Source: a virus
DNA: 23,889 bases
Reading direction: 5' to 3' (one strand)
Virus record (IMG/VR): IMGVR_UViG_3300049846_000613
Coordinates: 1 to 23,889 of that record
Shown one piece after another: positions 1,313-23,847 of the stretch (its first letter is position 1; the number at the start of each line of letters is the position of its first letter). Under the pieces are notes generated by a model, which worked only from the letters and a program-made list of their open reading frames with translations, did no database searches and was not told where the DNA came from. The position numbers and the translations under genes were made by a program.

Positions 1313-1837
1313 TTAAAATGTTATTGAATAGATTGAGTGAAATCCGGTTGCAAATGCCGCGTAACTGATGCCGGCGTCGGCTATGTAGTGCCACCACGGG
1401 CGCTTTTGCCCTATCGTCAGCGTCACCCCGGCGGCAAACAAGGTGCCCCGGTGTACGGTTCCGAACAGGTGCTTGGCGTCCGTTGTCCACGCCAGGAAGG
1501 TCGTGGAGCCAAGGAATGCTTCGCCCTGCGCTGGGTCTCCCGCCCTGTACTTGTTTGTCCAGGAAACGGAGTTATCCCAAAACCGCCGGTTCCAGGTGTC
1601 CGGGTAGCGACTTGGGTGGTGGACGGATGTTTCATGGAACCCCCACGCCATGCCGGACGCAAAGGACAGGGCGGCGGGGATCACGGCGTTTTTCCAATTG
1701 TACTTGACCGCCTTGGCCGGGGGCAAGTTCAGTCTCGGCGTGTCCGTCGTGATAGCATCATTTTCGATCTTCTGTGCAGATAGGCTGCACAGGGCAAGCA
1801 TTACCAAGCCGCTTGCCAGGTGGTACCGTCGTAACAT
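1313..1837 (-). CDS. Secreted or membrane-associated protein of unknown function
   Basis: This 174-residue protein begins with an apparent signal peptide (MLRRYHLASGLVMLALCSLSAQ: two arginines, a hydrophobic core and a likely SPase I site in SLSAQ). The mature part is rich in Trp, His and aromatic residues, with weakly hydrophobic stretches (NAVIPAALSFASGMAWGF, LFAAGVTLTIG, YIADAGISYAAFATGF). A spacing of HET, DAKHLF and WWHYIAD elements may be conserved in the family, but I see no catalytic signature of a lysozyme, amidase or peptidase. The start at 1837 overlaps the fibre gene by 37 nt. A second ATG at 1801 forms a TAATG junction with the fibre stop but would remove the positively charged part of the signal. 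Its position suggests a role in lysis or the cell envelope. This is inference, and I do not recognise the family with confidence. Confidence 0.65.
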   Translation of the reverse strand: MLRRYHLASGLVMLALCSLSAQKIENDAITTDTPRLNLPPAKAVKYNWKNAVIPAALSFASGMAWGFHETSVHHPSRYPDTWNRRFWDNSVSWTNKYRAGDPAQGEAFLGSTTFLAWTTDAKHLFGTVHRGTLFAAGVTLTIGQKRPWWHYIADAGISYAAFATGFHSIYSITF

Positions 1838-4800: not shown

Positions 4801-5085
4801 GGTAATGATTAGTTCGTAGTAATACTCCTGCGTCGCCAAGGCCACGATCTGCGCGTTAGTTATTGCCAGGTCAATAGTACCCGCCGCGCCGTTGATCGTT
4901 AGCCCTGACCCGCTAGACAGCGCAAGGGCCGACGTTCCGTTTTTCTCGTAGATTGTGAATGCCGCACTTGCCCCGGTAAGCGTGTACGGGCTGCCGCTCG
5001 ACGTGAACGCGAATTGCAGGGAAAAATCCCCCTTATAATATGCGGCTATCGGGAAATTTCCGGGCCGCCCGTCAAAGTTTGCCAT
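1801..5085 (-). CDS. Repetitive tail fibre protein
   Basis: This 1094-residue protein is rich in Thr, Ser, Gly and Ala and very poor in Cys. Residues 1-150 form a beta-rich attachment domain resembling the BppU baseplate N-terminal domain (PIAAYYKGDFSLQFAF, then TIYEKNG and YYYELIITL). At 185-196 lies a canonical EF-hand-type loop, DADDDGKVDAVE. Residues 248-255 are eight consecutive glycines, a likely hinge. The shaft at about 280-735 contains repeated modules: LTALAGLT at two sites, LLDDANAATARTTLG or LVDDADASTARGTLG, and two copies of an LK-x-KDTNASH...TGDADRTLT...TNTGDQ unit at 424-476 and 575-632. Residues 738-1094 are homologous to part of the upstream hub protein. The end, GVLLPRMTTTQRDAI to YDGTTWQ, is a fibre-tip type common in Bacteroidota phages. 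It probably forms a trimeric receptor-binding fibre. I see no chaperone or autocleaving domain. Confidence 0.85.
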   Translation of the reverse strand: MANFDGRPGNFPIAAYYKGDFSLQFAFTSSGSPYTLTGASAAFTIYEKNGTSALALSSGSGLTINGAAGTIDLAITNAQIVALATQEYYYELIITLSGGSVWPVLDGAFTVSEDGQYNYSGDTVTVALDGNTVTLSIVPASVSSSRLIPSGGTTGKVLAKASGTDYDVAWTTVAGTGDMTKAQYDADDDGKVDAVEDNISTQKIVVSKAGTTVGTRKQVNLIEGSNVTLTVSDNSGSDRVDVTIAASGGGGGGGGIWGSITGTLSDQTDLNSALSGKQPLDAELTALAGLTSAADKVPYFTGSGTAATTDLTSFARSLLDDANAATARTTLGVDAAGTDNSTPVTLAGTLDYITISGQQITRGAIDLATDITGNLPVANLGSGTGATSSTFWRGDGTWATPAGGGTLNDGDTLTTGLTFPNTGLKIKDTNASHTLTITPGSDLTANKTLTITTGDADRTLTLTGNASITGTNTGDQDLSGLQPKDATLTALAGLTIAADSLSIGTGADAFTQTTFAANTFPAKASTGALVAKTITDFGLSLVDDADASTARGTLGAAASGANTDLTSVYLNNAGLKLKDTNASHGLIVSPGSDLTADRTLTITTGDADRTLTINSSTTLGGGTHSGTNTGDQTITLTGDVTGSGTGSFAATIANSAVTLAKMADMATASFIGRNSASTGVPEVLSATTATAILNAMVGDSGSGGTKGLVPAPAAGDAAANKYLKADGTWTAISAGSGDIINGGNTTGAAVTIGTNDANALNLETNNVTRLSITGAASTGGQVTVTNVTANTNATQDVLILQSNSTGTAAAGFGPALSFYGESSTTDNQEMGRISALWTTATHATRTSDMVFYLPVSAAAASEHLRIVGGSPSSLKIGGGSTLFQNTGITTANAFTLGNSAQTVTIGGQSGNVTIVTSGSVSIGSSFVSNSTTFGTTSFTSTTTNRVSTKWADSFAPSAGGTNTFKQASIQGTINQTGGHTGNTWGIEIAPTLTSVGGTYYAIDIAANSASAKGIYQSGSSTTNNFVGATNFGSTSAPNAKAIVEFTSTTQGVLLPRMTTTQRDAITSPPAGLTIFNTTTTKLECYDGTTWQAAW
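1804..2874 (-). repeat. Domain duplicated in the hub protein gene (copy in tail fibre)
   Basis: This stretch encodes fibre residues 738-1094, from DIINGGNTTGAAVTIGTNDA to the C-terminus. It is the partner of the block at 6777-7817 in the hub gene. The two copies are of similar length (357 and 347 residues) and collinear. In the fibre this block forms the C-terminal tip. In the hub protein another 370 residues follow it. Confidence 0.85.
3190..3363 (-). repeat. Fibre shaft repeat, copy 2
   Basis: This stretch encodes fibre residues 575-632. It starts LKLKDTNASHG, continues PGSDLTADRTLTITTGDADR and ends TNTGDQ. It aligns with the copy at 3658-3816 and has a short insertion (GGGTHSG) before the end. 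The repeat is also visible in the DNA, though silent changes show it is not recent. Such modules usually build the beta-structured shaft of trimeric fibres. Confidence 0.75.
3658..3816 (-). repeat. Fibre shaft repeat, copy 1
   Basis: This stretch encodes fibre residues 424-476. It starts LKIKDTNASHT, continues PGSDLTANKTLTITTGDADR and ends TNTGDQ. It pairs with copy 2 at 3190-3363. Each copy lies in the same larger context of LTALAGLT and DDA(N/D)A(A/S)TAR modules, so the duplicated block is probably longer than this core. Confidence 0.75.
4498..4533 (-). other. EF-hand-type calcium-binding loop in the tail fibre
   Basis: Fibre residues 185-196 read DADDDGKVDAVE. This fits every position of the 12-residue EF-hand/dockerin-type loop: Asp at 1, 3, 5 and 9, Gly at 6, a hydrophobic residue at 8 and Glu at 12. 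It sits between the attachment domain and the repeat shaft. Calcium-dependent fibre folding or adsorption is plausible but not shown by the sequence. Confidence 0.6.
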
Positions 5086-5654: not shown

Positions 5655-8600
5655 TTATTGCTTTATGTGGATGTGAAAAGTGTATGTGGTCGAGGCCGTC
5701 GGCGCTGTGGCGCAGGCAATGGTGTACGATGTATTGCCCGCCGATCCGACGTACCACTTGGCCACCTCCCCGGCGGCATTGGCGTTGGCGGGGCTGAATG
5801 TCACGCCGGTGAATAGTCCGGCGTCCAGGGCACTGCCGAAGGTCACCGTACAAAGGGTGCCCGTCGTCGGCCCCGTGCCCGTGGTCACGGTGATCTGGTG
5901 GCTTAGATCATTGCCAAGGTCAACGGACACCGTTGGCCCTGTGCCCGCCGCTGCGCCCGCCGCAATGGTCGGCGCTACCTGGCAGGTTATCCGGTGCCAC
6001 GCTCCCCCGTATCGGTATTCAAGTCCGTCGGCATCGCTGTTCGATCTGATTGAGTTGTTCACCGCCGGGCGCTGCGCTACTGTGCCCTCAGGCAGTGCTA
6101 TTGAATCCGTGGCCGTGGCCGCGTCCAGGGTCACGGCGGGCGTGGTGGTGAGCAAGCCCACACGTTTATCGTCCCGCACGGCCATGATGATGGCCGGGGT
6201 GCCTGCGCCGTCGTAGATGCGAAGGCCCCAGTTTGAAGACGTGGTTCCGAGGCTGATTATTTTCAGGCGGCTGTTGGCGTCGGCGGTGGGGCTGTTTGCA
6301 CCTGAAATGATGACATTTTTTACGATCGACGTAAAACTGTTGTACCCGTCAATCTCGACGCCGCCGTTTATGTTCCATATTTTAAATAAGCCTGAATTGT
6401 CATATTTAGCAGCATTCCTGTATAAATAATGACTTGATGAGCCATATCCGTCTGCAATCGAAATTTTAAGCGCATTTCCGGCCGAATAAACTTCGTTTTC
6501 GATCCTAATCGTTTGCGTGAGCGGCCCCGTAGCAGTACCAGTTAAAAGTATTGAGCCTGGAACCTGGTCTAGCGTTCCGTCTGATTCAATCTTTATACCG
6601 TCTAAGTTTGTCGTCGTTTTGATACTTAACCGGTATGCCGGACTGCTCTGATTAATGCCAAGACGGTCGTTCGTCGCGTCGTACCAAAGGGCATTTTCCC
6701 CCGTGATTGATGACGCCCCGTTCCAGTAGGCCACTTGCCCCGCTGATCCGCTGCCCGTTACTCCGCTGCCTGTCCCTAAGCTAACCCACGCGCCGTTTGC
6801 CCGCGCTTTCACGGTGTCCGTGTCCGTATCGTACACGATAAGGCCGTCACGGGGGCTGCCGATAGCGTTCACCTGCGCCGTGGTCATCGCGGGCAGGCCC
6901 AGGCCGCGTGCCGTGCTAACTATGTCAATAATTGCCGAGGCGTCGGGGGCCGATGTGGTGCCAAATGCTGTTTGGCCGAGGATGTTGTTTTTTGTAGTCG
7001 TGCCGGTCTGATATATCCCCTTGGCATTCGCGTGATCGACGGCGATTTCCAACGCCCGGTAATCGGCGGCGGCAGTAATAGTGTGATTGATATACGCGCC
7101 TCGCGTGATCCCGTTGGCCCCGCCCGTCTGGTTTATCGTGCCTCCGAAGTTCAGGAAATTGATAACAGCAGTGCCCGATGTGGGCGAAAATCCGCCGGCT
7201 ACATTCAGCCAGTTTTTTGTGCCGCTGTTCATCGTCGAGGAGTACCCCGACGAAATATTTACGCTCGTAGTTGTGCTGTTCGGGTCAAGATTGATATTTG
7301 CGGCAAAGGAGTTGATCGTCACGGCGTTTGACCCGTTCCCTATCGTGAAATCAGTACCGGCAGTTATTGCCGCGTTCGCATAGGTCGTCGTGCCGCCGCC
7401 GATCTTTATCTTCGGCGTGGCCCCGCCAACAATACGGGCATGTTCGCTGAGTGCCCCGCCGTTGTTGACATTGAGAAAAACAATATCGGACGTCCGGCTC
7501 GCATGGGTGACCGTTGACCAGGTGGCTGAAATGCGGGCCATATCCTGCCCGTCTGTGCTGCTGCTCTCCCCCTGAAACAGGATAGCACCCCCAAACCCAG
7601 CCGACGGGCTGCCCGTGCTATTCGTTTGCAGGGTAAGAATATCTTGCGCGGCATTCGTGGTTGCCGTCGTGTTCGTGATCGTCACCGCCCCGCCTGTGCT
7701 GGCCGCACCCGTGATCGCTACACGGGTCACGTTGTTCGTTTCCAGGTTCAGGCCGAACGCATCATTTGTGCCGATGGTCACCGCCGCCCCCGTGGTGTTG
7801 CCCCCGTCGAGGATGTCACCGGCCCCGGAGGCGGGACTTTCCTCCTGCCAGCCGTTCACGCTATCCCAGGTCAGGACATTGCCATCAACGGTGCCGCTGT
7901 ACACCGCCCACGCACTGCCATTCCAGCGTAGTATTTCGCCCGACGTGGTGCCGTTAGGCACGGTGCCGGATGGGCCAGCGCTTTCCACCCATCCGTTCGT
8001 CGCATCCCACGTCAGATAGTTGCCCGGCGTGGTGGCGCTGTATGCCGCCCACTGCGTTGCTACTTCATCCCATTTCAGTATTTGCCCTTCGGCAGTGCCG
8101 GGGGGGATGCCCTGTGCGCCGCCCGTGCCGGTGTAAAAATTGTATAGGCTATAAAGAACCTGCGAGCCGATCGGTATATCAATGCCATGATCGACTGAAT
8201 CCACCGTTATCGATGTTGCGCCGCCCGCTTGGTCGTTGTCAACCGTGAACGGGTACACCTGCCCGTTTTGCGGGTTGTATAGATAAATCGTGTCGCCGTC
8301 AAAAATGGTGTTGGCTTTTAGCGGCTCCGAAATATCTATTGTGGTGATTGCCCCGCTCGATAGGGTTGTTGTGGTTGTGTTGAACGCCTGTATAGATACG
8401 CCCGTACTTGGCGATATTTTTCTATTAGAAAAACCTGTGCCGTCAGGATCGCCCACCGATATTTCCCATGTTCCGGGGTTGAAAATGTCCGGCCCCGGTA
8501 TTTTTTTTGGCGTTGTCGTAACGATGAAATTACCGTTAGACACACCGGCGTAAATCCACTCTCCAGACCATTCGCCTTTGCGGGCGTTAAAATCGCCCCG

Positions 8601-10427
8601 TGACATTAACCAGCCGGTCAGGTCGGGCAATAGTATGCGGTCGTGTGCTTTGATGATCGCGCCGTGCAATGTGCCCGCGTATGTCTGCGCGGGGATTTCC
8701 TGCAATTTGGCAAGTTCATTACATAGCAGGTCGCCAAACTCAAAATCATCAGTTGCCGCGGCCCTGTCCCATGTCGCCGTGGTGTCCACCCATGTAGCAA
8801 GGTCGTCGCACGTCTGTATCTTTCCAGGCGTCCACGGCTGCACGGCATGACCAAATATTTCGGTCATTTCCAGGGCATCGCTGTTTCCCGTCGCGTTGGT
8901 CGCTATGTACGTGCGCTTTTTCTCAAAATTCTCCGTTGCGCTCGATCCGTAGATTGCCAGGGCGAGACTTTTCCACGACCAATCATTCAGCGTAACCGTG
9001 CCCGTTAGCGGGTTTCCGCTTGCGTCCTCATCTCCTAATGCGTTAGTGAAATCAATTGAAAATGCGTTTTGGCTCGCCGTAAGGATAGGAGTCCAGAATT
9101 CAAAAGGTACTGATCCTACAAATCGATTGGAAAATATCCACGGCGTTGATACCTCATAATATGTTTCCTGCGGGCCGCTTTTCCACGTCGGGCCTGTTCT
9201 GTTCAGGTCGCCGTAAACAGGAATGCCGTTTGCGATTACGGCGCTCGTTAGCGATTCAATGCGGTAATCGCCCGTGGTCAAAATAAGTTCAACGCCGAAC
9301 ACGTACCGCCACGGGGTGTCATAGGTGTCCACCTCCACGTCGATGTTTAGTACGCCTGAAACCCTGAATCGGCTATCTGCGTCAAACCCGATATTGGTAA
9401 AAGACACCGGGCTGTTTGCCCCGCTGAACTTGTACCACTTATTTGACAGGCTGGAAAGGTAATTACGGTATGTATTGTGGTCGTAGTCTACTTCCACTTT
9501 TTTGAGCGCAGGCAGCCATGAAAACGCCCCGCCCCGCAGTCTAAACCGGGTCACCTGTTGATCAATGCTGGTGTCGTAGGTTTTTGTGGTGCCGGACAAA
9601 AAGCCGCCGCCGTTGTCGTACCAGCGTTCCTTTACGTTTTGCTCGTGGCGCTCCCGTATCTGCTCAAATCTCCACGCCCCATCCGATAGCATGAGCCGGG
9701 CCGCCCAATGTGCGCAAATCTGCTCAAGTACATAGTATGGGCTTTTCCACTTGTAATCATCGCCGTCGTTGCCCTCGTCGCGCTCGGCAAAGATTTCCCC
9801 CGATACGCGGGAGTATAAAAGCGGGTCTTTGGTTTCGTCAACGGCGGGCATATTTTCATCCGACCAATTGACAATCGTACGGAGCCAAGCGTCTGACGGC
9901 CCCCAAAAACTTTCTGTGCCGATGTATGTAAGACACTGCGAAATGTGCGTGATAAAGGACAGAAACCCATAAGGGACATTTGGCGTAAAATTCGTGTCTT
10001 TATATTCTTCGTTCTTTAGCCGCCCCAGGCCGTCCACGGCTCGCAGCGACAAAAAGAACGCGCTACCTATGTCTTCATATTCGCTTATATCCGGCGTCAC
10101 GATGCCTACCCAGTGCAGATTATCCACGCCCGCAACCACACGCCAAATAACCAGATTAAAGCGGGTCTCCACGGATGTTATTAAGTCCTGGATGAAGTCG
10201 TCAATGTCTGACCTGTTATCCTCGTTTACCTTTATGTCTACGGACGCCGAACTGCCGATTATTCCGGGGACTACCTTATCCGTAGCGCCCTGGTAACTCA
10301 GTGTAAACCCGTCATCGGCGGTTTCCACGGTCAGGCTCAGCGGGAACGTGCCGCTGTCGTGTATTTCAACGCGGAACGTCTCGCCGTTCTGGTTCAGAAA
10401 ATTGCCCGATGTTATCCGTGCCGCCAT
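5655..10427 (-). CDS. Tail hub protein fused to a tail fibre
   Basis: This 1590-residue protein directly follows the tape measure gene (TAATG junction, shared A at 10427), the usual place of the tail-tip hub. The N-terminal part (about 1-650) has a beta-rich opening (RVEIHDSGTFPL, GIIGSSASVDIKV, WVGIVTPDISEY) ending in AVDGLGRLKNEEY. I associate this pattern with hub or tail-tip proteins of Bacteroidota prophages. Residues 777-868 hold two copies of a module of about 45 residues (GQILKWDEVATQWAAYS..., then GEILRWNGSAWAVYS...). Residues 871-1217 are homologous to residues 738-1094 of the separate fibre. Residues 1218-1590 are a second fibre-like region, with SLGTTSSNWGLRIYDG, then LEYRYGGAWHRI, and a final beta domain ending YTFHIHIKQ. 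The fusion of hub and fibre in one chain is the notable point. No peptidoglycan hydrolase motif was recognised. Confidence 0.75.
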   Translation of the reverse strand: MAARITSGNFLNQNGETFRVEIHDSGTFPLSLTVETADDGFTLSYQGATDKVVPGIIGSSASVDIKVNEDNRSDIDDFIQDLITSVETRFNLVIWRVVAGVDNLHWVGIVTPDISEYEDIGSAFFLSLRAVDGLGRLKNEEYKDTNFTPNVPYGFLSFITHISQCLTYIGTESFWGPSDAWLRTIVNWSDENMPAVDETKDPLLYSRVSGEIFAERDEGNDGDDYKWKSPYYVLEQICAHWAARLMLSDGAWRFEQIRERHEQNVKERWYDNGGGFLSGTTKTYDTSIDQQVTRFRLRGGAFSWLPALKKVEVDYDHNTYRNYLSSLSNKWYKFSGANSPVSFTNIGFDADSRFRVSGVLNIDVEVDTYDTPWRYVFGVELILTTGDYRIESLTSAVIANGIPVYGDLNRTGPTWKSGPQETYYEVSTPWIFSNRFVGSVPFEFWTPILTASQNAFSIDFTNALGDEDASGNPLTGTVTLNDWSWKSLALAIYGSSATENFEKKRTYIATNATGNSDALEMTEIFGHAVQPWTPGKIQTCDDLATWVDTTATWDRAAATDDFEFGDLLCNELAKLQEIPAQTYAGTLHGAIIKAHDRILLPDLTGWLMSRGDFNARKGEWSGEWIYAGVSNGNFIVTTTPKKIPGPDIFNPGTWEISVGDPDGTGFSNRKISPSTGVSIQAFNTTTTTLSSGAITTIDISEPLKANTIFDGDTIYLYNPQNGQVYPFTVDNDQAGGATSITVDSVDHGIDIPIGSQVLYSLYNFYTGTGGAQGIPPGTAEGQILKWDEVATQWAAYSATTPGNYLTWDATNGWVESAGPSGTVPNGTTSGEILRWNGSAWAVYSGTVDGNVLTWDSVNGWQEESPASGAGDILDGGNTTGAAVTIGTNDAFGLNLETNNVTRVAITGAASTGGAVTITNTTATTNAAQDILTLQTNSTGSPSAGFGGAILFQGESSSTDGQDMARISATWSTVTHASRTSDIVFLNVNNGGALSEHARIVGGATPKIKIGGGTTTYANAAITAGTDFTIGNGSNAVTINSFAANINLDPNSTTTSVNISSGYSSTMNSGTKNWLNVAGGFSPTSGTAVINFLNFGGTINQTGGANGITRGAYINHTITAAADYRALEIAVDHANAKGIYQTGTTTKNNILGQTAFGTTSAPDASAIIDIVSTARGLGLPAMTTAQVNAIGSPRDGLIVYDTDTDTVKARANGAWVSLGTGSGVTGSGSAGQVAYWNGASSITGENALWYDATNDRLGINQSSPAYRLSIKTTTNLDGIKIESDGTLDQVPGSILLTGTATGPLTQTIRIENEVYSAGNALKISIADGYGSSSHYLYRNAAKYDNSGLFKIWNINGGVEIDGYNSFTSIVKNVIISGANSPTADANSRLKIISLGTTSSNWGLRIYDGAGTPAIIMAVRDDKRVGLLTTTPAVTLDAATATDSIALPEGTVAQRPAVNNSIRSNSDADGLEYRYGGAWHRITCQVAPTIAAGAAAGTGPTVSVDLGNDLSHQITVTTGTGPTTGTLCTVTFGSALDAGLFTGVTFSPANANAAGEVAKWYVGSAGNTSYTIACATAPTASTTYTFHIHIKQ
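6777..7817 (-). repeat. Domain duplicated in the tail fibre gene (copy in hub protein)
   Basis: This stretch encodes hub residues 871-1217, from DILDGGNTTGAAVTIGTNDA to ANGAWVSL. Collinear matches to the fibre block at 1804-2874 include GGNTTGAAVTIGTNDA, LNLETNNVTR, ITGAASTGG, the FGGAILFQGESSSTD/FGPALSFYGESSTTD pair, THASRTSDIVF/THATRTSDMVF, GTINQTGG, AKGIYQ and FGTTSAP/FGSTSAP. DNA similarity remains visible; for example TCATTTGTGCCGATGGT is identical in both on the plus strand. The copies have diverged most in the middle. Confidence 0.85.
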
Positions 10428-13747: not shown

Positions 13748-14170
13748 TTAGGATACCGTCGTCCGCGTGATTGCGCCCGTGCCGGTGAACGTGTAGGTGA
13801 ACGTCACCCCGGCGTCGTTACCCTGGCTGGACAGGCTCAGGTCAGTGATATAGCCATCGCCGTAGAAGTAGGTGTCGCCCGACGTACCCGTGGAGATCAG
13901 GAAAGATGCCAGGGTCTGGCCGCTCCACAGGTCAAACAGATCCTGGAATCCGTAAGTAGCGTCGAAGGCCAATAGGGCTTCCCCGCTCATCGTCCATGAC
14001 TTGGTGCCAGGGCGCGGGGCGGCCCATGCGCCGCTATCCTTACACGTCACGTCAAATGTCTCTGTTGATAATTGCAATTCCGCGTTCGTCTGGCAGGAAA
14101 TTGCCACGTCCGGGCTGGCGTTGTGGTAGATTGCAAAGTTTTTTGCAAGTATTGTTCCGGTGCTTGCCAT
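13748..14170 (-). CDS. Major tail tube protein
   Basis: This 140-residue protein starts MASTGTILAKNFAIYHNASP. It contains the segment STETFDVTCKDSGAWAAPRP followed by GTKSWTMSGEAL, typical of TP901-1-type major tail proteins (residues binding, beta-sandwich and long loop), then SFLISTGTSGDTYFYGDGYI and the end FTYTFTGTGAITR. Length and motif order match the family, whose hexameric rings stack into the tail tube. It is preceded by a 49-nt gap, the longest in the head-tail block, with a small CCGG-TTTAG-CCGG hairpin and an A-rich leader. That gap may allow separate, stronger expression of this abundant protein. Confidence 0.9.
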   Translation of the reverse strand: MASTGTILAKNFAIYHNASPDVAISCQTNAELQLSTETFDVTCKDSGAWAAPRPGTKSWTMSGEALLAFDATYGFQDLFDLWSGQTLASFLISTGTSGDTYFYGDGYITDLSLSSQGNDAGVTFTYTFTGTGAITRTTVS

Positions 14171-15677: not shown

Positions 15678-16243
15678 CACACCAGGTTTGTACGGTGATT
15701 GAATGCCAGCCATTGCGACGACCGCGAACCGGGGTCTTTCAGCGACATATCCTCCCTCCGCTCATACAGCATTGTAAGCGTCAACTTTATCGCGTGTTTC
15801 AACTCTTCCGGTATTGCCCCCGCCGTGCTATCGCCAACTGTGTACCGCACCTGCACGGCATTTGGGTATTCGCCCAAATCTGGCAGGCTGGTATCCGGGT
15901 TGGGCACGATGCGGGGGGTCTGCCCGATCAGGTCGGATGTGTAGTTCGTTGATGCCCACGTTTGCAGCGCTCCGTCTTCGTCGATGTACTTGACATGCGT
16001 CACCGATGCTGCCGGGTGCAATGGAAGTGGTACATAGCCCTCTGCGGGCCACTCATCATAATACACGTCCACTGTTTGAACAGCAAGCAACCGGCCCGTC
16101 TCTGATTCGACTTTGCGCCGGGCCACGGAGATGAGGCTTTCAATGAGCGCATCCTCGTCGTTGTGGTCAACGCGTAGTTGCGCCTTGGCCTCCACCAAGG
16201 TCACAGGCTCAAATGCCGGGCCGGTTGCTATGCTGTACTTCAT
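15677..16243 (-). CDS. Head-tail connector protein, gp6/phiE125 gp8-like
   Basis: This 188-residue protein starts at ATG 16243 (MKYSIATGPAFEPVTLVEAK), which forms an ATGA overlap with the capsid gene stop. An ATG at 16309 would put 22 unrelated residues inside the capsid gene. The opening EPVTLVEAKAQLRVDHNDED is the standard start of phiE125 gp8-like and HK97 gp6-like connectors (EPVTLAEAK-x-HLR). It is followed by the helix LIESLISVARRKVESETGRL, then LPLHPAASVTHVKYIDEDG and VQVRYTVGD, all expected in the family. The C-terminal helix contains EELKHAIKLTLTMLYERRED. These proteins form the ring under the portal. Confidence 0.9.
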   Translation of the reverse strand: MKYSIATGPAFEPVTLVEAKAQLRVDHNDEDALIESLISVARRKVESETGRLLAVQTVDVYYDEWPAEGYVPLPLHPAASVTHVKYIDEDGALQTWASTNYTSDLIGQTPRIVPNPDTSLPDLGEYPNAVQVRYTVGDSTAGAIPEELKHAIKLTLTMLYERREDMSLKDPGSRSSQWLAFNHRTNLV

Positions 16244-17553
16244 TGGGAGGTATGTACGTTTGCGCTGTATGCGAACGATTGACCGTGCGTTACGGCCATG
16301 TCGTACCAACTGTTCATCACTACTTGCACCGTTGCTTCTTTGAGGCGCGTGTACGGGTCGGCCATAAGTTCAAGCCCGCCCCATTGTCCGATGTACAATT
16401 GCGACCAATCGCCGAAATACATATAGTGCGCCACGCCGGACGTCGGCACGTTGGTAGACGTGAGGGCGCGGTATCCGTTCACGGTGCCCGTTCCGTTGTT
16501 CGGGCCTTCCCAGATGAATCCGTTTCCGGCGGTGTCCCGCTTGACGGTCTTCAAAATCCCCGCTACGGTAGGTGTGGTCAGGTAGGCCATTGTGGATCCG
16601 TCGGCGTTGTCGGCGGCTACTTGCGTCTCGAAGTCCACGATCTTCGCCCACGTCGGCGCAGCCGCCACGGTGATCGCGTTCACGCCCGAAATACCGGGGA
16701 TACCCGTGGGGCCATTGGAGGTCGAGGATGCCAGGGCCGCGCTATCCAGGGCATTGTCGCGGGCGTTCATCAGTCGGTTACGGATGAAGTTCTCCACGCT
16801 GATTGTGGATTGGCGCAGGAGTTGAAGGCTGTATTCCGTCCACGCGGCCAGGCGCTTGGGTGACATTTGCACCCGGTCAAACGTCGGCGTCGTTTCGTCG
16901 GCAGTCGATTGTTCCGTTTCCCACACGGCAGCAGCCGCGCCGTCGTTGCGCGGGAAGTCGATATTGCCGCTCAGGCCGTTGAGGAACGTGCATCCCATGC
17001 GGAAAACAACGCCCTTGGGATCAAGGAACGGAATCAACTGCCCTACGTCGGTCTGCACGGTGAATCCGCCCGTCGTGGTGGTTCCTGCCACCAAGTCACG
17101 CTGTTGGATGAGGGCAGGAACGAGAACGCCGGATCCGTAATTTCCAATACCGGCGGCTCTCATCTCGTTTTGTGCCTCCTCGTGCATCTCTTTTTCCAGG
17201 CCGGAAAGGTTGCCTTTGCCCACGGCGGCCATGATCGCGTTGCGGAACGAGTAGCGCTTCGCTACGTCGTCGCGCTTATCACCGCGATTTTGGATGACAT
17301 TCACGTTGATGGGGGCCTCCGTGGTGGCGCTCGATGTCCAGCCCGCGCTTCGGGCTTCGATGTCGAGCATGGTCTCCAGGCGGCGCACTTCGGCGTCGGC
17401 GGTGTCAAGTTCGGTCTTTGCGCTGTCCAGGGCCGGGCCGTCGGTGGCTTCGTTCCAGGTGCGGGCTTCGATTTTTTCGCTCAGCGCTTTCACTTTGTCC
17501 AGCGCCGCGCCCCGTTGTTCACGGGCCGCTTTGAGCAGTTGTGCAGTGTTCAT
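16240..17553 (-). CDS. Major capsid protein (HK97 fold)
   Basis: This 437-residue protein has an N-terminal charged helical region (residues 1-72, KAAREQRGAALDKVKALSEK to VRRLETMLDIEA) that looks like the HK97 delta/scaffold domain removed by the prohead protease. After a linker come GGFTVQTDVGQLIPFLDPKG (the usual GG-x-x-VP/T-x-(3)I region), NIDFPRND, AAWTEYSLQLLRQSTISVEN and FIRNRLMNARDNALDSAALA. Next is the family GTPGIPGI-like turn (NGPTGIPGISGVN), and near the end the GDWSQLYIGQWGGLELMADP motif typical of HK97-type capsids. The protease gene lies 2 nt upstream. I cannot place the cleavage site with certainty. There is no fused decoration domain. Confidence 0.93.
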   Translation of the reverse strand: MNTAQLLKAAREQRGAALDKVKALSEKIEARTWNEATDGPALDSAKTELDTADAEVRRLETMLDIEARSAGWTSSATTEAPINVNVIQNRGDKRDDVAKRYSFRNAIMAAVGKGNLSGLEKEMHEEAQNEMRAAGIGNYGSGVLVPALIQQRDLVAGTTTTGGFTVQTDVGQLIPFLDPKGVVFRMGCTFLNGLSGNIDFPRNDGAAAAVWETEQSTADETTPTFDRVQMSPKRLAAWTEYSLQLLRQSTISVENFIRNRLMNARDNALDSAALASSTSNGPTGIPGISGVNAITVAAAPTWAKIVDFETQVAADNADGSTMAYLTTPTVAGILKTVKRDTAGNGFIWEGPNNGTGTVNGYRALTSTNVPTSGVAHYMYFGDWSQLYIGQWGGLELMADPYTRLKEATVQVVMNSWYDMAVTHGQSFAYSANVHTSQ

Positions 17554-17555
17554 AA

Positions 17556-18443
17556 TTATTTGCTTGGATGTGACGCAAGCAAGGCACGAATCTGCCTGCT
17601 GCGCTGGTTAATAATCTGTGTATCAGGCTCCGAACGTTGGCCGTTCAGGGCTGCTATCAGTTGTGTATGTGCAAGTATTGCCGCCTTGGCCGCGTCCACC
17701 GCCGCCTGGCAGGCGTTGACAGCCGCGCCGAACAGGTCTGCGTTGGCGGGGCTGAGTGCGATGAGCGTGTCCACGTTTTCAGCGAAGGATGTGCATTCCG
17801 TGACCGTCTCGTTCAGGCATTCAATACAATCATTTGATGCACTGATCGCCTCCCCCATGACCTCCGCCGGGCTTGGCATCTCTGCTCCGTCGCGGGCCTG
17901 CATATCGTGGCTGCGCTTGGCCACCGTCGTGTCTGGGTTGGCGGGGAATGTCACGGGGGACACGTCGTACACGCGCTTCACGGCTTTGATCGTCCGGTGG
18001 TCTTTGCCGTTCATCCGCTCCCATACGTCCCCGGCGGTGTTGTCATCGTAGCGCAGGGTGAAGCCCCACGAACTTTGCGAGATGTCGCCCCGCTCGATGG
18101 ACGTGGCAAGGTCACGGGCGGCCTGCGTGTCGGGCAGGTCGATCTCATAGGCCAGGCCAGTATCGTCAATGCTCAGGCTGAGCGTTCCGGCTGCCGTGCG
18201 GCCAAGTACCACGTTGGGGTCGTGGTTCAGCAGCGCCCGCACGTCGGCCATGTCCGCGTTTGCCAGGGCTTCGCGGGCGATTTCCTCCGTGAACCAGCCC
18301 ATGTCGTAGCGCTGCCCGAATTTCAGGGCATAGCCGCGCAGTTTCTTTTTGCCGTCGCCCATACCCCGGATTTCCAGGCCGTCACCATAGGCGCGTGTTT
18401 CGAGGCCGTCGGCCTTAATCTTGCGATATTCAGGCTGTTGCAT
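17556..18443 (-). CDS. Prohead protease (HK97 type) with C-terminal helical extension
   Basis: This is a 295-residue protein from ATG 18443 (MQQPEYRKIKADG). An ATG at 18524 would add 27 basic residues that overlap the portal gene. Family features are LRGYALKFGQRYD, then RALLNHDPNVVLGRTAAGTL with the likely catalytic His74, then DISQSSWGFTLRY, where Ser125 is the likely nucleophile, and DVSPVTFPANPDT. It cleaves the capsid delta domain during maturation. After about residue 175 there is an additional 120-residue, alanine-rich helical region (PSPAEVMGEAISASNDCIEC to ACQAAVDAAKAAILAHTQLI) not needed for the protease fold. It may be a scaffold-like or capsid-targeting tail. Start overlaps the portal stop by 14 nt. 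Confidence 0.9.
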   Translation of the reverse strand: MQQPEYRKIKADGLETRAYGDGLEIRGMGDGKKKLRGYALKFGQRYDMGWFTEEIAREALANADMADVRALLNHDPNVVLGRTAAGTLSLSIDDTGLAYEIDLPDTQAARDLATSIERGDISQSSWGFTLRYDDNTAGDVWERMNGKDHRTIKAVKRVYDVSPVTFPANPDTTVAKRSHDMQARDGAEMPSPAEVMGEAISASNDCIECLNETVTECTSFAENVDTLIALSPANADLFGAAVNACQAAVDAAKAAILAHTQLIAALNGQRSEPDTQIINQRSRQIRALLASHPSK

Positions 18444-19791
18444 TGTCTGTATTTTGTCCAGGGTTCGCCGTCGTGTCAGGTGAATTTTGCCCCGTGTCCG
18501 TTTGTGTTTGCCCATTTTTGCCATTGAGTATTTCGCCTAGCATGTCCATAGGGGCCATGTTCTGTTGAATAAACAGGGTGTCGCCGCCCTCGATCTTGTT
18601 CAGGTTTTTCTTCGCCCGCACCTCGTTTGGTGTCATCCACCCGTTTTGGATAGCAGAGGCAAAGAATTTGCTTTGTGCCTCCATGTCGCCCATCTGCATG
18701 GCGGACAAATCGAAGGCGAAAAAGCGGCGGCGGTTGCGGATTTCTGAGGTGGTAAATAGTTTGGTGGTAATTTCCTCCTCGATCTTCCTTGCCCACGGGC
18801 GCAGGCAGTGGACTACGAAATCTTGGTTTTGCTGCTCGATGTTTGAGAATGTAGCCCGGTCAAGTTGGCTGAGCAGGTGCAGGGGGACTTTGAAAATCTG
18901 GCTTACCTCGACGGTTGTCAGGTTGCGAAAGTCAATCACCGCCGCATCCTTTGGCCCTGCCTGCATGGCTTTGAAGTCGGCCCCGGCGTCAAGAACCATG
19001 ATGCTGCCGGCGTTCTTGCTGCCGGCGTGTGACATTTCGAGTTTTTGCTTCAGCACTTCCCGCTGCTCCTTGCTCAGGGCATTGGGGAACGTGATGAGGC
19101 CGCCCACGCTGGCTCCTTTCTCGAAATAGGCGTTACTGTATTGCTGCGCGCCGATGGATGTGGAAAACGAGCCGGAATGTACAAGGCTCACCCGCTTCCC
19201 AAGGAGGCCCGTCAACGTCACGCCCTTGATGTGTATAATCTCCGTTTCAGGAAGTAGTACATTGATGGGCTGATTGTTCAGGTTGCCGGACACGTGGTAG
19301 AACAGTTGCCCCGTGGGGCCGTAATACTGTTGCACCATTTCCTGCGGGATCAATTCCAGCGCCTTGGGCCGGGCCGTCTGCGCATCGAAGTGAATGCGGG
19401 CATAGCCATTGCCCAAACAGGCGTTAGTTATGAGCGTTTGCAGGAAATCGAACGTAGTGTAGGAGGGGTGCGGGCGACCGTCGAACAGGTAAGAAACCGG
19501 GCTGTCGTGGTCGGGGAATACGTCGCCGTCGCTGTCGCGGCGGAAAACGCCCCGATCCAGGGAGGCTATACCCTCGGAAATGTAGCGGATGGCCGACCAG
19601 GCCGGGGGGACACGTAGCACGGTCTCGTTTGTGACCGTGGCGGGGCCTGAGTTCAGAAATGACGTGTCAATGCCGAACAGGCTGAGGTTGGCAGGGTTGG
19701 AAAGGGACGTGGAACGCACTTCCGGCGGTGTTTCCGCCTTACGCGCATAAAAAAACCCGATTTCGTACCCGAATACCTGCATTTGCTGCAA
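18430..19791 (-). CDS. Portal protein (HK97 family)
   Basis: This 453-residue protein shows the HK97 portal pattern throughout: VTNETVLRVPPAWSAIRYIS with EGIASLDRGVFRR, then HPSYTTFDFLQTLITNACLG with NGYARI, then NVLLPETEIIHIKGVTLTGL, GLITFPNALSKEQREVLKQK, and near the end the stretch FKVPLHLLSQLDRATFSNIE with QQNQDFVVHCLRPWARKIEE. It forms the dodecameric ring through which DNA enters and leaves. The C-terminus (GQTQTDTGQNSPDTTANPGQ) is polar and low-complexity. The start at 19791 follows a 65-nt gap. A second in-frame ATG 9 nt later (residue 4) could also serve. Motif order and length fit the family well. Confidence 0.94.
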   Translation of the reverse strand: MQQMQVFGYEIGFFYARKAETPPEVRSTSLSNPANLSLFGIDTSFLNSGPATVTNETVLRVPPAWSAIRYISEGIASLDRGVFRRDSDGDVFPDHDSPVSYLFDGRPHPSYTTFDFLQTLITNACLGNGYARIHFDAQTARPKALELIPQEMVQQYYGPTGQLFYHVSGNLNNQPINVLLPETEIIHIKGVTLTGLLGKRVSLVHSGSFSTSIGAQQYSNAYFEKGASVGGLITFPNALSKEQREVLKQKLEMSHAGSKNAGSIMVLDAGADFKAMQAGPKDAAVIDFRNLTTVEVSQIFKVPLHLLSQLDRATFSNIEQQNQDFVVHCLRPWARKIEEEITTKLFTTSEIRNRRRFFAFDLSAMQMGDMEAQSKFFASAIQNGWMTPNEVRAKKNLNKIEGGDTLFIQQNMAPMDMLGEILNGKNGQTQTDTGQNSPDTTANPGQNTDNATA

Positions 19792-19856: not shown

Positions 19857-20093
19857 TTACACGATCAGTATATGCACCTCAATCCTCCCTGGCCCCCCGC
19901 CCTGGCGGTAGCGCCGGTATGAGGCGGTAAAAGATTCGTAATTGATGAACCGGCGCACGACTTTGCCACGGGCCGGGTTGCTGTACATGCGATTAAATTC
20001 CCGCTCGGTTTCCCACCAGGCGAGTTTAGGCTCTCCGATTTCTGCCAGTTTTTCACCGTAGACGGCAAAATAGTCCTCAGGGAGTAGCATCAT
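19857..20093 (-). CDS. Small basic protein of unknown function
   Basis: This 78-residue protein starts MMLLPEDYFAVYGEKLAEIG and ends with a basic stretch, GKVVRRFINYESFTASYRRY, then GPGRIEVHILIV. The start overlaps the glycosyltransferase end by 17 nt. Two consecutive ATGs (20093 and 20090) make the exact start uncertain. There is no signal peptide, transmembrane segment or known motif. It lies just upstream of the portal gene. Its small size and basic C-terminal half would fit a nucleic-acid- or capsid-interacting accessory protein, but that is only suggestive. I do not recognise it. Confidence 0.6.
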   Translation of the reverse strand: MMLLPEDYFAVYGEKLAEIGEPKLAWWETEREFNRMYSNPARGKVVRRFINYESFTASYRRYRQGGGPGRIEVHILIV

Positions 20094-21069
20094 TTTGTTG
20101 TATTAAGTGCGGAAACATGCGAAATATCGACTCCGCCCGCTTCCGTGTTTCAGAAATCATATTATAATTCTCTACTATCTCCTGGCAGGACTTCTCCCAC
20201 AGCGCCACCCCTTCCTTGTGCGTCGGGAAGGTAGCCGTTGAATGTTCCCACCCTGGCCGCCCGGCGTAGTTAGTCAGGCAAGCGCCCCCGGCCATTGTCG
20301 CCTCAATCCATGCAATGTTCGATTTATGGTCGTTGAATTGGCAGGGCATCATCGGTTTCCATACGCCGTTCAGTTGCAATTTGGGCAGCATGGCAAAGTA
20401 CATTTCCGGGTCATCCAAGGCGGGTAAAAATCGGCTGTTGTCGCCGTGATCCAGGGGGGGATAGTAGCCGATGAACGTCCATGCCTTCGCCTTGTCCCGG
20501 ATTCCGGGCCAATCCTCCTGGCCCTGACGCCACAGATCGTGCATCTGTATGCTTTGCCCCCGCCATGACCAATGTCCGGTGTCCGGGCTTGGCTTATCCG
20601 GCAGTTCACCGGGAAGGATGGCGTTTTTCACCACCAATCCGCCGCTGTGGTATGTCTCCAAAAACGCCTCTGTGCTGAACCAAAAAAGGTCAGCCATGCC
20701 AAGGCAGTCCTCCGTTGCTTTGCGGCGGGCTTTGTCCTGAAAGTCGCCGGACAAAGCATGTATGTCCGGCAAGTGGAGTATGTCGTCGTCGATGTCCACA
20801 ATGAAATACCGGGGGGCAATCCTGGCTGACGACTTCCATTTTTTCACGAAATCGTTTATCGTTTGTTGCTCCCCTTTTTTGCCGCTGCCGGGCCGGGCAG
20901 TGATAACCACGTCCGCCCATAGCATGTCCCCGTAATCCAGTTCCTTGCGGGCATAGCGGACATTGAAAACGCCGGGGTAAAGTTTACCCATCAGCGTCAG
21001 GGGGCCGAACAGCCGCCAATAGGCGACGTTGGAAAGAATCGGGTACTCTAAAACTAATATATTAATCAT
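20077..21069 (-). CDS. Glycosyltransferase-like protein (GT-B fold)
   Basis: This 330-residue protein has the two-domain look of a GT-B enzyme. The N-terminal part opens INILVLEYPILSNVAYWRLF, then has ADVVITARPGSGKK and YFIVDIDDDILHLPDIHALS (residues 88-107). The C-terminal part has KAWTFIGYYPPLDHGDNSRF, the segment FNDHKSNIAWIEATMAGGAC (residues 245-264) resembling the donor-nucleotide binding E-x-M-A-x-G region of GT1/GT4 enzymes, and a helical end (SETRKRAESIFRMFPHLIQQ). Sugar donor and acceptor cannot be read from the sequence. Phage enzymes of this type may modify phage DNA, virion proteins or host surface glycans. It overlaps the methyltransferase stop by 8 nt, so the two are probably co-expressed. 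Confidence 0.65.
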   Translation of the reverse strand: MINILVLEYPILSNVAYWRLFGPLTLMGKLYPGVFNVRYARKELDYGDMLWADVVITARPGSGKKGEQQTINDFVKKWKSSARIAPRYFIVDIDDDILHLPDIHALSGDFQDKARRKATEDCLGMADLFWFSTEAFLETYHSGGLVVKNAILPGELPDKPSPDTGHWSWRGQSIQMHDLWRQGQEDWPGIRDKAKAWTFIGYYPPLDHGDNSRFLPALDDPEMYFAMLPKLQLNGVWKPMMPCQFNDHKSNIAWIEATMAGGACLTNYAGRPGWEHSTATFPTHKEGVALWEKSCQEIVENYNMISETRKRAESIFRMFPHLIQQNDATP

Positions 21070-21706
21070 ACTTTAAAACAGATTGGATGCCTTTGCTCAT
21101 CCTGTTTTTTGCCGCTGCGTAGTAATCGGGGTCTATCTCAAAGCCGATGTAATCAAACCCCATACCTTCGTAGGCTATTAGGCTGGATGCGCTGCCGACG
21201 TGCGTATCAAGGATTAGGTCTCCCGGCTTGGCGTATTTGCTTAAAATCCATTCGTAAAGGGCAATGGGTTTTTCTGTGGGATGAAAAACCCTTTCGCTAT
21301 TCAATTTCCCTCTTGAATAATTAGCAACACGTAACGGCTTTTTAAAACTGGTCCAGGCCAGCTCTCCGTCTGCTAATGTGAAATTCCTTTGTCCTTTATC
21401 CCAAAAAATCCATCCGCTTGAATTTTTGCTAATTTTTTCAATAAAATAATTTGCTCCCCAAATAATCTGGTTTTTTGATACTCTAAAAAGTTCTAAAAAA
21501 TACGCTTTGCTTGGCTCTGTATTCCACTTTTGGGCCTTTCCATAAGTTCCTTTCCATCCGGCTCCACCGTTGGCGGAAGTTCCGCCAACAAGGTTACAAT
21601 GTTCGCCATACGGCGGGTCAACAATAGCCAAATCAAAGAACCCGTCAGGATATGACGGCAGCCCTATGTTTTTATCCATGCAATCGCCCAAAATGAATTT
21701 GCCCAT
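21062..21706 (-). CDS. DNA methyltransferase (N4-cytosine/N6-adenine, beta-type order)
   Basis: This is a 214-residue amino-methyltransferase. The catalytic motif DPPYG lies near the N-terminus (residues 30-34) in DLAIVDPPYGEHCN. The SAM-binding motif LILDTHVGSASS (164-175) lies near the C-terminus, preceded by HPTEKP (142-147) and followed by YIGFEIDPDYYAAAKNR. Catalytic motif before SAM motif is the beta-class order. The canonical D-x-F-x-G-SG-T is here DTHVGSAS. It is short, with only a small possible target-recognition region around 40-130. There is no restriction partner, so it is probably an orphan enzyme that protects phage DNA. The start immediately follows the large terminase stop (TAAATG). 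Base composition is far more AT-rich than its neighbours (13 of 60 bases are G or C at 21421-21480), a sign of recent acquisition. Confidence 0.88.
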   Translation of the reverse strand: MGKFILGDCMDKNIGLPSYPDGFFDLAIVDPPYGEHCNLVGGTSANGGAGWKGTYGKAQKWNTEPSKAYFLELFRVSKNQIIWGANYFIEKISKNSSGWIFWDKGQRNFTLADGELAWTSFKKPLRVANYSRGKLNSERVFHPTEKPIALYEWILSKYAKPGDLILDTHVGSASSLIAYEGMGFDYIGFEIDPDYYAAAKNRMSKGIQSVLKYD

Positions 21707-23407
21707 TTATATAAAAATTAAGTCATCTTCGAGTAAATAACTTTTCTGTTGCGGCTCCCCCCGGTCTTTCAGCCATTGCCCCACGGCGTTCAGCATAGCC
21801 GCCACGCCGTCGATCTTATCCACGCTCCGCCCCTTGGACGGTGCGTAATTCCCCTGCGTTGTCAGGTGCATAACTACGTTTGCCATGTTCCACCTTAACA
21901 CGGGGTTGCCCCCGTGGATCAACTTACCCGGCAATGCAAAGTGTTCGACGTGCTTAGCAGGGGGGCTTAGCATCAGCGGGCTTTGCGGGTACGGCTCCAT
22001 TCTGAACCCATGCTCCACCAACTGCGGCACCAGGTAGGAAGAAAGGGCTTTGTCGAACGCAATAGCCGAAACGGTGTAAGGCTCGCAGATTTCCAGCATG
22101 TCCGCCAATATCACGCTGTAATCCGTGACGTTGCCCGCCGTGGTCTTTATATATCCTTCCTTTACCCAGCGTTCCACAAATGGCCGCTTGCTGCGGTGTT
22201 TTTCCACCGCCTCCTCCGTGATCCAGTACCACACCAGCACCACGGCTTTCTCTGCGTCGTGTCGTGGCGGGAAAAACAGACAAAAGGCGTTGAAGTCGTT
22301 TGTATTCGCAAGGTCAAGGCCTGCCCAACATTCACGCCCGGCCAGGTCTTCCAGGTCGGGGGCGTCATCTCCTTTTCTCCAAATGTCGTCGGGTATCCAT
22401 CCTTCCTGGCTGGCATGTTCGAAGTTCAGGTTTTTTACTTTGAAGTCTATTTCCTTTTGTATGCCCTGGCTGGCAATCTTGTTGTATTCCGTCTCCAAGC
22501 CGGTCATTGACACCGATATGCCCAGGCCGGGGTTGGCCTTTATCCAAAGGCTTTTGTCGTGCCAGTCGTCGCCCTCATCCAATTCGTAGATGAATGCGAG
22601 CAGTTCGGAGTTGTCGGCAACGCCACTGAGCATGTTTTTACACGCCCGCAAAAATTCGCTGTTCGGCCCTTCCGGGTTGTTTCCCGCCGTGGTGATGATC
22701 CACGTCACCGGGTCTTCGACCTTCACCATCCCCGATTCCATAACGTTTAGCAGATCATCGGTGTCCCAGGCGTGGAACTCATCGACTAACACATAATACG
22801 GGCTTGCCCCGTCCTCCCCCTCGCTGTCCCGGCCAAGGTAGGCCACCCAAGAAAGTCCCTGCGTGTTTCTGATCCTCGTGGATGAATGCCCCGACGGTAT
22901 CTGGATCATGGGCTTTAGTTCGGGAAAATCCTCTACCATCATTTTCAACATAGCCCGCTGCCGATCCCACCCGATGCGGGCTTGGTCTTTCTTGGTCGCC
23001 GTCCAATAAACTTCCGGGTCGGGGGCCCCGTCGAACAAAAAACCGATGGTGCCAATCGTGACCAAGTTGGCCGTCTTCGCATTCCCCCGCGCTACTTTGG
23101 TATACACCTTGCGGAACCGCTTGCCCCCGTCGGTGCGCCTCCACCCGTAGGCCATGTACACAACCGCCGCCCACCAGGGCATTATATCAAAGGGCTTGCC
23201 CGCCTCTTTACCCTTGCTGAACTTGAACAGGCGGTACAAGTTCAGTATCCGTGCCGCCTCGTCTTCATCGAAGTAGTACGGGAAATCGTCACTGCCAACG
23301 CGCCCCAGGTCATCCATGTGGCGCTGCATGGCAAGGCGCACCCATTTGCCGGTGACGATTTCACCGGAAAGAACCCCTTGGATGTACCCTGTGGCGCGGT
23401 CGATCAT
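21707..23407 (-). CDS. Terminase large subunit
   Basis: This 566-residue HK97/Terminase_1-type packaging motor has an ATPase and a nuclease half. The ATPase carries ARGNAKT (residues 106-112) as Walker A, with Ala where the family often has Gly (RGNGKS). YYVLVDEFHAW (204-214) holds Walker B Asp209 and catalytic Glu210, and TTAGNN (239-244) is the coupling motif. The RNaseH-like nuclease has acidic residues in GLDLANTND (Asp365), IAFDKAL (Asp452) and VDKIDGVAAM (Asp533). It drives DNA into the prohead and cuts concatemers. The start overlaps the small terminase stop (ATGA). Length is normal for the family. Confidence 0.95.
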   Translation of the reverse strand: MIDRATGYIQGVLSGEIVTGKWVRLAMQRHMDDLGRVGSDDFPYYFDEDEAARILNLYRLFKFSKGKEAGKPFDIMPWWAAVVYMAYGWRRTDGGKRFRKVYTKVARGNAKTANLVTIGTIGFLFDGAPDPEVYWTATKKDQARIGWDRQRAMLKMMVEDFPELKPMIQIPSGHSSTRIRNTQGLSWVAYLGRDSEGEDGASPYYVLVDEFHAWDTDDLLNVMESGMVKVEDPVTWIITTAGNNPEGPNSEFLRACKNMLSGVADNSELLAFIYELDEGDDWHDKSLWIKANPGLGISVSMTGLETEYNKIASQGIQKEIDFKVKNLNFEHASQEGWIPDDIWRKGDDAPDLEDLAGRECWAGLDLANTNDFNAFCLFFPPRHDAEKAVVLVWYWITEEAVEKHRSKRPFVERWVKEGYIKTTAGNVTDYSVILADMLEICEPYTVSAIAFDKALSSYLVPQLVEHGFRMEPYPQSPLMLSPPAKHVEHFALPGKLIHGGNPVLRWNMANVVMHLTTQGNYAPSKGRSVDKIDGVAAMLNAVGQWLKDRGEPQQKSYLLEDDLIFI

Positions 23408-23847
23408 ATTGCTTTTTTAACCGGGCCTTTCATTAGTTCAAGAATTGACGTTTGCGGCTTTGGCTTTTCGACCTTCATGGCCATGCGCGACCGGGGCGTA
23501 AACCCAAAATCCGTTTGCAGGCGCATCATCTGTTGCACCGCATCGCGGTAAATAAGCCAATCGGCTTTATCCCCGCTTTTGCTGTATGCTCTGTGCGCCT
23601 TACCCCTTATAATGTCCAGTTCGACGTACAATTTTAGGCTCTCCGTGTCCGGGAACGTCAGTATGTTTTGATCCCTCAAGATCGTGGCTACCTCGGCCCA
23701 CCGCTTCCGGTGCTCAGCGTCGAAATCCGCAGGGGGATCGGGGATGCCCTCGACCAGGGGAGCGGTCAGCCGGTGGGCGTGGCGGACGGGCTGGTAGGTG
23801 CCGTCTGCTTTGTGTTTCTCCGTTGTCTTAGGTGGTCGTCCTTTCAT
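23404..23847 (-). CDS. Terminase small subunit (P27 family)
   Basis: This is a 147-residue protein. The start KGRPPKTTEKHKADGTYQPV with RHAHR is typical of P27-type small terminases (GRPPKP-x-x-x-K-x-x-GT). The middle is helical (AEHRKRWAEVATILRDQNIL, then ESLKLYVELDIIRGKAHRAY), and the end contains the conserved FGFTPRSRMAMKV motif (FG-x-TP-x-SR). It recognises phage DNA and delivers it to the large subunit. It is the first gene of the visible operon. Only 42 nt of upstream sequence are present, including a 16-bp palindrome that ends 1 nt before the start codon. Confidence 0.93.
   Translation of the reverse strand: MKGRPPKTTEKHKADGTYQPVRHAHRLTAPLVEGIPDPPADFDAEHRKRWAEVATILRDQNILTFPDTESLKLYVELDIIRGKAHRAYSKSGDKADWLIYRDAVQQMMRLQTDFGFTPRSRMAMKVEKPKPQTSILELMKGPVKKAI

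Follow-up and report, generated by a model that had tools for sequence, protein, structure and literature searches.

We analysed a virus-derived stretch of 23,889 nt (IMG/VR record IMGVR_UViG_3300049846_000613, positions 1 to 23,889; the whole stretch is called the window below), in which a glycosyltransferase gene and a DNA methyltransferase gene lie back to back among head genes. All genes of this region are on the minus strand. The glycosyltransferase open reading frame (ORF) occupies 20077-21069 (330 aa) and the methyltransferase ORF 21062-21706 (214 aa), sharing the 8 nt 21062-21069. On the upstream side, the stop codon of the large terminase gene (TerL, 21707-23407; PF20441, E 2.5e-30; PF03354, E 4.9e-26) is followed without any gap by the start codon of the methyltransferase, and TerL is preceded by the small terminase (TerS, 23404-23847; PF05119, E 9.7e-9). 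On the downstream side, the glycosyltransferase overlaps by 17 nt with a small ORF of 78 aa (s78, 19857-20093), after which come the portal protein (18430-19791; PF04860, E 1.5e-83), the head maturation protease (17556-18524; PF04586, E 1.3e-40) and the major capsid protein (16240-17553; PF05065, E 2.2e-34). The coordinates and the Pfam neighbours agree with the initial annotation, which had placed the pair, overlapping by 8 nt, between terminase and portal. Our results suggest that the glycosyltransferase is the conserved centre of a module for building glycans, bounded upstream by TerL and downstream by portal, within the head operon of a lineage of uncultured siphophages.

The window glycosyltransferase had no Pfam or NCBIfam match, and at a threshold of E 0.01 its sole match was a weak one (E 2e-6) to PHROG 7162, 'glycosyltransferase', an entry of phage proteins which names no acceptor. 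The same PHROG was matched by nine of nine members of the A3 set (best E 1.2e-13) and by the divergent members L034 (E 5.4e-21) and L057 (E 6.3e-18). A structure model based on the 35-row alignment A4 reached a predicted local distance difference test score (pLDDT) of 92.1 and a predicted template modelling score of 0.90; it replaced an earlier model from a 4-row alignment (pLDDT 58.7), the fold matches of which were meaningless. Residues 1-322 of the model were covered by GT-B matches, with structural Z scores (VIA) of 21.4 for sucrose-phosphate synthase, 21.0 for BshA, 19.8 for both SenB and PglA, 19.4 for TarM and 17.9 for T4 DNA alpha-glucosyltransferase, and Foldseek gave E 2.6e-9 against SenB. 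As far as prediction goes, it is settled that the protein has a GT-B, GT4-like fold with two Rossmann-like domains over the whole chain. A fold search had been named beforehand as the check on this gene, and with a pLDDT of 92 and a best Z of 21 it bore out the annotation as a GT-B enzyme. SenB, BshA, PglA and TarM, all GT-B/GT4-like, match it over the whole length (Z about 18-21, root-mean-square deviation 2.9-3.8), but they share only about 8-12% identity with the window protein, which has no Pfam match. The predicted fold is silent on which substrate gets the sugar. Homologues were collected with the motif W-K-P-x5-F-N-x-x-K-S/T-N, by which all 44 records other than the window were found and whose positions are invariant by construction. 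Outside this motif, D92, D94, D95, H104, S132, N149, A150, W169, G171, D178, G261, C264, W274 and R311 were identical in 35 of 35 rows of A4, a suggestive pattern that hints at nucleotide-sugar transfer activity. After filtering at <90% mutual identity, 24 full-length glycosyltransferases were left, the window's among them, and the remaining 23 were 27-50% identical to it.

The motif scan returned 46 stretches, 44 of which carried the family by hidden Markov model (HMM); together with the window they made up 45 glycosyltransferase records, and L046 and L068, with a motif match and no HMM match, were dropped. This is a motif-selected set and not a sample of all phages; several loci on one contig were counted as one, and gene families were single-linkage BLAST clusters in which partial ORFs at contig ends were included. 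Portal was found downstream of the glycosyltransferase in 39/45 records and TerL upstream in 29/45; both held together in 25/45 and the reverse order in none of the 45. The typical order was TerS, TerL, S-adenosylmethionine (SAM) methyltransferase, in some records a second glycosyltransferase, then glycosyltransferase, s78, portal, protease and capsid. Among the six records with no downstream portal, L012, L016, L041 and L055 end before it, and L034 and L075, the most divergent contexts, sit outside the head genes. At L034 (5521-9284) we also saw, upstream, a GT9-like ORF and another ORF that probably accounts for the C5-methylase match mentioned below.

The sequences of the glycosyltransferase and the portal diverged together (Mantel distance correlation, r 0.84, 18 records, p 0.0005; these correlations used at most 27 non-redundant records of related sequences, and the p-values are rough). 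High values were also obtained for glycosyltransferase and s78 (0.80, 16 records), for s78 and portal (0.86, 17 records) and for glycosyltransferase and SAM methyltransferase (0.68, 13 records), and TerL and portal gave 0.61 (9 records). A portal profile search returned 21 loci, from which five close relatives were excluded (four of them with the glycosyltransferase, while L007 begins inside portal), leaving a comparison group of 16 loci (L018-L033). In these 16 loci neither the glycosyltransferase nor the SAM methyltransferase, the second glycosyltransferase or s78 was found. Both TerL and portal were present in 10 of the 16, and there the two adjoin, with a gap of 84-203 nt in nine and overlapping ORF calls in L027; the module therefore looks specific to the lineage of the window. 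Among the 16, L018 alone is close, and it contains just 1.6 kb upstream of portal, so that the missing glycosyltransferase there says little; one ORF in this stretch resembles Methyltransf_24 but scores below the Pfam cutoff.

The genes accompanying the glycosyltransferase were of a limited number of kinds. s78 lay downstream of it in 34/45 records, directly adjoining in 25, and gave no match in Pfam, PHROG or NCBIfam; this small protein, which is inherited along with the glycosyltransferase and portal, may serve as adaptor or acceptor. A SAM methyltransferase cluster (Methyltransf_11, small-molecule-type) stood between TerL and the glycosyltransferase in 23 of the 29 TerL-bearing records, the six others being the window, L004, L006, L009, L010 and L059. 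The second glycosyltransferase occurred in 15/45 records, with Glyco_tranf_2_4 above and GT92 below the Pfam cutoff. L035 has nearly the same glycosyltransferase as L059, and its upstream genes are unrelated but of the same kinds (Glyco_tranf_2_4 above the cutoff, Methyltransf_23 just below). The cassettes are richer in close relatives of the window, whose portals are about 70% identical to its own. L003/L009 have three Methyltransf_24 genes and L005/L010 have two that were tested; there is also a protein with a RIO-type kinase match, whose N-terminus, not matched in Pfam, we take to be HAD-like. The cassette of L004 holds Methyltransf_23 and an ATP-grasp protein, and that of L006 GT_PLOD, a hexapeptide transferase and a short DegT-type protein. 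The glycan-type neighbours above the Pfam cutoffs were Methyltransf_11, Glyco_tranf_2_4, TOD1_MUCI70, GT_PLOD, Methyltransf_24, Hexapep, DegT and ATPgrasp_Ter, along with the RIO-type kinase match. The 8-nt overlap is not peculiar to the pair in the window: in 10 of the 23 records with a recognised partner cluster directly upstream of the glycosyltransferase, the window included, an overlap of 1-13 nt was seen with mechanically picked start codons. Reverse-strand ORFs were observed between glycosyltransferase and s78 in L011 (3993-4775), L012 (7097-8161) and L016 (4045-4884) and between s78 and portal in L036 (5060-5695), which again suggests that mobile genes enter this interval.

By its sequence, the methyltransferase of the window is a beta-class N6/N4 DNA methyltransferase, with the PF01555 cutoff passed (E 2e-13, 51.3 bits, cutoff 26.7) and the catalytic motif present (DPPYG, then DTHVGS). 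Its GC content is 0.426 and its GC at third codon positions (GC3) 0.433, against 0.539 and 0.662 for the glycosyltransferase; the 21 other window genes measured, including the glycosyltransferase, have GC3 of 0.592-0.733. The methyltransferase is thus the one gene of the window with foreign base composition. The initial annotation had described the glycosyltransferase as free of AT bias and the pair as probably not gained in one step, and both statements are upheld by a GC3 inside the range of the other genes for the former and the AT-rich methyltransferase next to a gene of native composition for the latter. The subfamily of the DNA methyltransferase was present in only 3/45 records and at three different positions: upstream of the glycosyltransferase in the window, downstream of it in L006, and between TerS and TerL in L053, which carries the SAM methyltransferase as well. 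The copy in L006 is AT-rich (GC 0.361, neighbours 0.49-0.53), and that in L053 is less so (0.426, neighbours 0.45-0.48). Another PF01555 protein stands downstream of the glycosyltransferase in L035. Whole-record searches covered 15 records, which may be fragments and one of which, G009 (the record of L046), is without the glycosyltransferase; the window methyltransferase matched in two of them, once weakly (the record of L059). Across the 45 records, the DNA methyltransferase and the glycosyltransferase were not inherited jointly. Relatives of the methyltransferase were found in 779 GenBank phage records, the 20 best listed being 45-51% identical and belonging to Flavobacterium, Bacteroides and other phages. 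It resembles the orphan N6/N4 DNA methyltransferases of phages (PF01555) and is unusual solely in its place. A defence system was considered and rejected: PADLOC matched the methyltransferase alone, and the 25 shown of 43 families were type II or orphan methyltransferases. The gene is probably an unrelated orphan, recently acquired, that landed in an insertion-tolerant interval, and it may protect the phage DNA from restriction. Should this reading hold, it would caution against pairing a phage glycosyltransferase with a DNA methyltransferase on the strength of their being neighbours.

A precedent for the module is found in the cluster O mycobacteriophages. In Catdawg, Firecracker and Dylan, an O-methyltransferase gene and three others lie between portal and protease (also PMC4351075), and the authors of PMC4351075 proposed capsid modification. 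The annotation of Catdawg calls the three further genes glycosyltransferases; the O-methyltransferase is TylF-type, and the overlaps with the glycosyltransferase genes are 4 to 8 nt. According to PMC12363180, glycosylated proteins have been identified in Che8, Corndog and Myrna (citing Freeman et al., 2023). The 'undescribed function' of the initial annotation was hence too strong an expression, as an analogue, the virion glycosylation of Corndog-like phages, has already been published; our literature searches found no publication that describes the module of this lineage. The two modules are alike in having methyltransferase and glycosyltransferase genes with short overlaps in the head operon beside portal, and the overlap of O-methyltransferase and first glycosyltransferase in Catdawg is likewise 8 nt. 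However, the interval is portal-protease there and TerL-portal here, and protein glycosylation, reported for Corndog-like phages, is a prediction for this lineage. Corndog-type gene content is seen in those records of the lineage that have the SAM methyltransferase in the interval (23 of the 29 with TerL), while the window has only a DNA methyltransferase and the glycosyltransferase there. A Corndog-like way of working is plausible by analogy, but by glycosyltransferase homology the lineage does not belong to that group.

On the grounds of the conserved place in the head operon, the glycan-capable neighbours and the cluster O precedent, we give about even credence to the reading that the module glycosylates the phage's own virions. 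The glycosyltransferase, presumably expressed late, would probably transfer a sugar from a nucleotide sugar to a protein of the assembling virion, such as the capsid protein, the tail tube or a protein near head and portal; alternatively, it would add the sugar onto a glycan begun there by the second glycosyltransferase. In the relatives, the small-molecule-type methyltransferase would then probably cap the glycan. Candidate acceptors in the window are the major capsid protein and a probable major tail protein (13748-14170, minus strand), the label of which was inferred from its position and from its clustering with correspondingly placed ORFs of relatives (cluster 14). The suggestion in the initial annotation that the acceptor could be the capsid or the host surface still stands, supported by the synteny of the lineage and by the precedent. 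If virions are indeed glycosylated here, the trait is not confined to the actinobacteriophages for which it has been reported.

Several results weigh against this reading. The correlation of the glycosyltransferase with TerL was weak (r 0.25, 12 records, p 0.04), as was that with protease (0.17, 15 records, p 0.11), which together with the strong portal correlation indicates that the glycosyltransferase travelled with portal and not with every head gene. The capsid proteins of the lineage fall into two distinct BLAST clusters (18 and 14 records, none shared), yet the glycosyltransferase is the same with both, which speaks against an acceptor limited strictly to the capsid, and the printed C-termini of capsid and tail proteins showed no Ser/Thr-rich tails by eye. 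The window itself keeps just the glycosyltransferase and s78, with no sugar methyltransferase or second glycosyltransferase beside them. The presence of T4 DNA alpha-glucosyltransferase among the fold matches makes the predicted fold compatible with a DNA target as well. Finally, no homology to Catdawg gp33-36 was detected for the glycosyltransferase, the SAM methyltransferase or the second glycosyltransferase: the five lineage profiles gave hhalign probabilities of <=1.8% and HMM E values of 0.07-1.3, and the SAM methyltransferase cluster did not match gp33. The broad family PF13578 was matched by both the Methyltransf_24 proteins of L003/L005 and gp33, but the one pair compared directly gave only E 0.07.

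With somewhat less confidence, we propose that the head-operon glycosylation module arose independently here, as a core GT-B enzyme inherited along with portal and s78, to which exchangeable genes for methyltransferases, second glycosyltransferases and sugar biosynthesis are added, so that the virions of each phage would carry a glycan of their own. s78 may in that case be a dedicated acceptor or adaptor. Virion glycosylation would then have originated more than once, the second time from glycosyltransferases that have no relation to the ones in the mycobacteriophage module used for comparison. With their exchangeable side genes, these phages would form a natural series in which to study the roles of virion glycans away from an animal body.

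The strongest rival is that the module acts late in infection on the surface glycans of the host, changing envelope polysaccharide or glycoprotein; this might, for instance, keep progeny off debris or exclude other phages. The fold relatives include the envelope enzymes TarM and GumK, and the neighbouring enzymes in the relatives fit this kind of target; the kinds of enzymes in the module also occur in polysaccharide clusters. However, the gene lies inside the head operon and not near lysogeny genes, and a GtrA-type flippase (PF04138), the mark of serotype-conversion gtr operons, was found in 0/15 records, which are possibly incomplete, with the control positive in 7/14 genomes. We consider a host-surface target unlikely.

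It is clearly less probable that the methyltransferase and glycosyltransferase genes are cargo in transit, neither of them with a role in the phage particle. The TerL-portal interval does admit varied genes (HNH-like, reverse-strand ORFs, DNA methyltransferases), and extra genes between terminase and portal are in themselves not new, having been described for several Microbacterium phages in PMC7302621. However, the glycosyltransferase has been kept across homologues only 27-50% identical and diverges with portal, and D92, D94, D95 and H104, among other residues that the search motif does not cover, are invariant in all 35 rows.

Least probable of all, by a small step, is glycosylation of phage DNA with or without the adjacent methyltransferase. 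The paired methyl and sugar modification offered in the initial annotation is not supported: the DNA methyltransferase subfamily is rare (3/45), scattered in position, AT-rich in the window and of the N6/N4 type, and the genes usually found around the glycosyltransferase are those of small-molecule-type methyltransferases and further glycosyltransferases. To our knowledge, the exocyclic amino group, the target of N6/N4 methyltransferases, is no acceptor for base glycosylation. In favour of a DNA target are the adjoining DNA methyltransferase, the match to T4 alpha-glucosyltransferase (Z 17.9), likewise a phage enzyme of GT-B fold, and a deoxynucleotide monophosphate kinase in the relative G002 (DNMK, L081 5198-5764; PF21448, E 5.2e-11), a gene present in some phages with modified DNA. 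T4 alpha-glucosyltransferase requires hydroxymethylcytosine in DNA, but no supporting thymidylate-synthase-family gene was found in the 15 records (thymidylate synthase/hydroxymethylase, PF00303, 0/15; control positive in 9/14). TET/JBP (PF12851) was in 0/15, where the positive control likewise gave no match, and a C5 methylase was in one of the 15, G010; this is the record of L034, where the glycosyltransferase sits away from any head operon. These absences weigh little because the records may be fragments.

Searches for the family beyond the motif-selected records gave few matches. Two homologues searched against GenBank phages gave none, and the P0001 search of GenBank phages gave one weak match, in the 595-kb uncultured phage LR756511, whose ORF (L082 805-1860) is a family member by HMM (E 4.9e-31). 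A scan of viral contigs with the single window glycosyltransferase returned nothing, and the A3 scans brought up, among viral contigs, only the ten that were known before, and nothing among bacterial genomes. The motif scan of a bacterial and archaeal genome collection yielded six stretches, and as none of them encodes the family by HMM, no host was identified. A Shine-Dalgarno-like sequence was seen by eye in few of 13 window genes, one of them upstream of 5655-10427, and Flavobacterium and Bacteroides phages are among those with the best-listed relatives of the methyltransferase; a Bacteroidota host is our guess.

Some minor observations were made in the rest of the window and in its relatives. 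At one end of the relative G001 (L078 1-372), a short degenerate repeat (LAPERLAPKR-like) was read in one frame, and it could be low-complexity DNA. PF00216 (bacterial DNA-binding) was matched by one ORF of the G001/G002 set. The small protein encoded at 111-422, near the window end, is 50% identical to an ORF of G001 (L078 8134-8436). In the tail region, the two large proteins encoded at 1801-5085 and 5655-10427 are 51% identical to each other over about 360 residues (E 3e-82), which would fit the duplication of a fibre domain.

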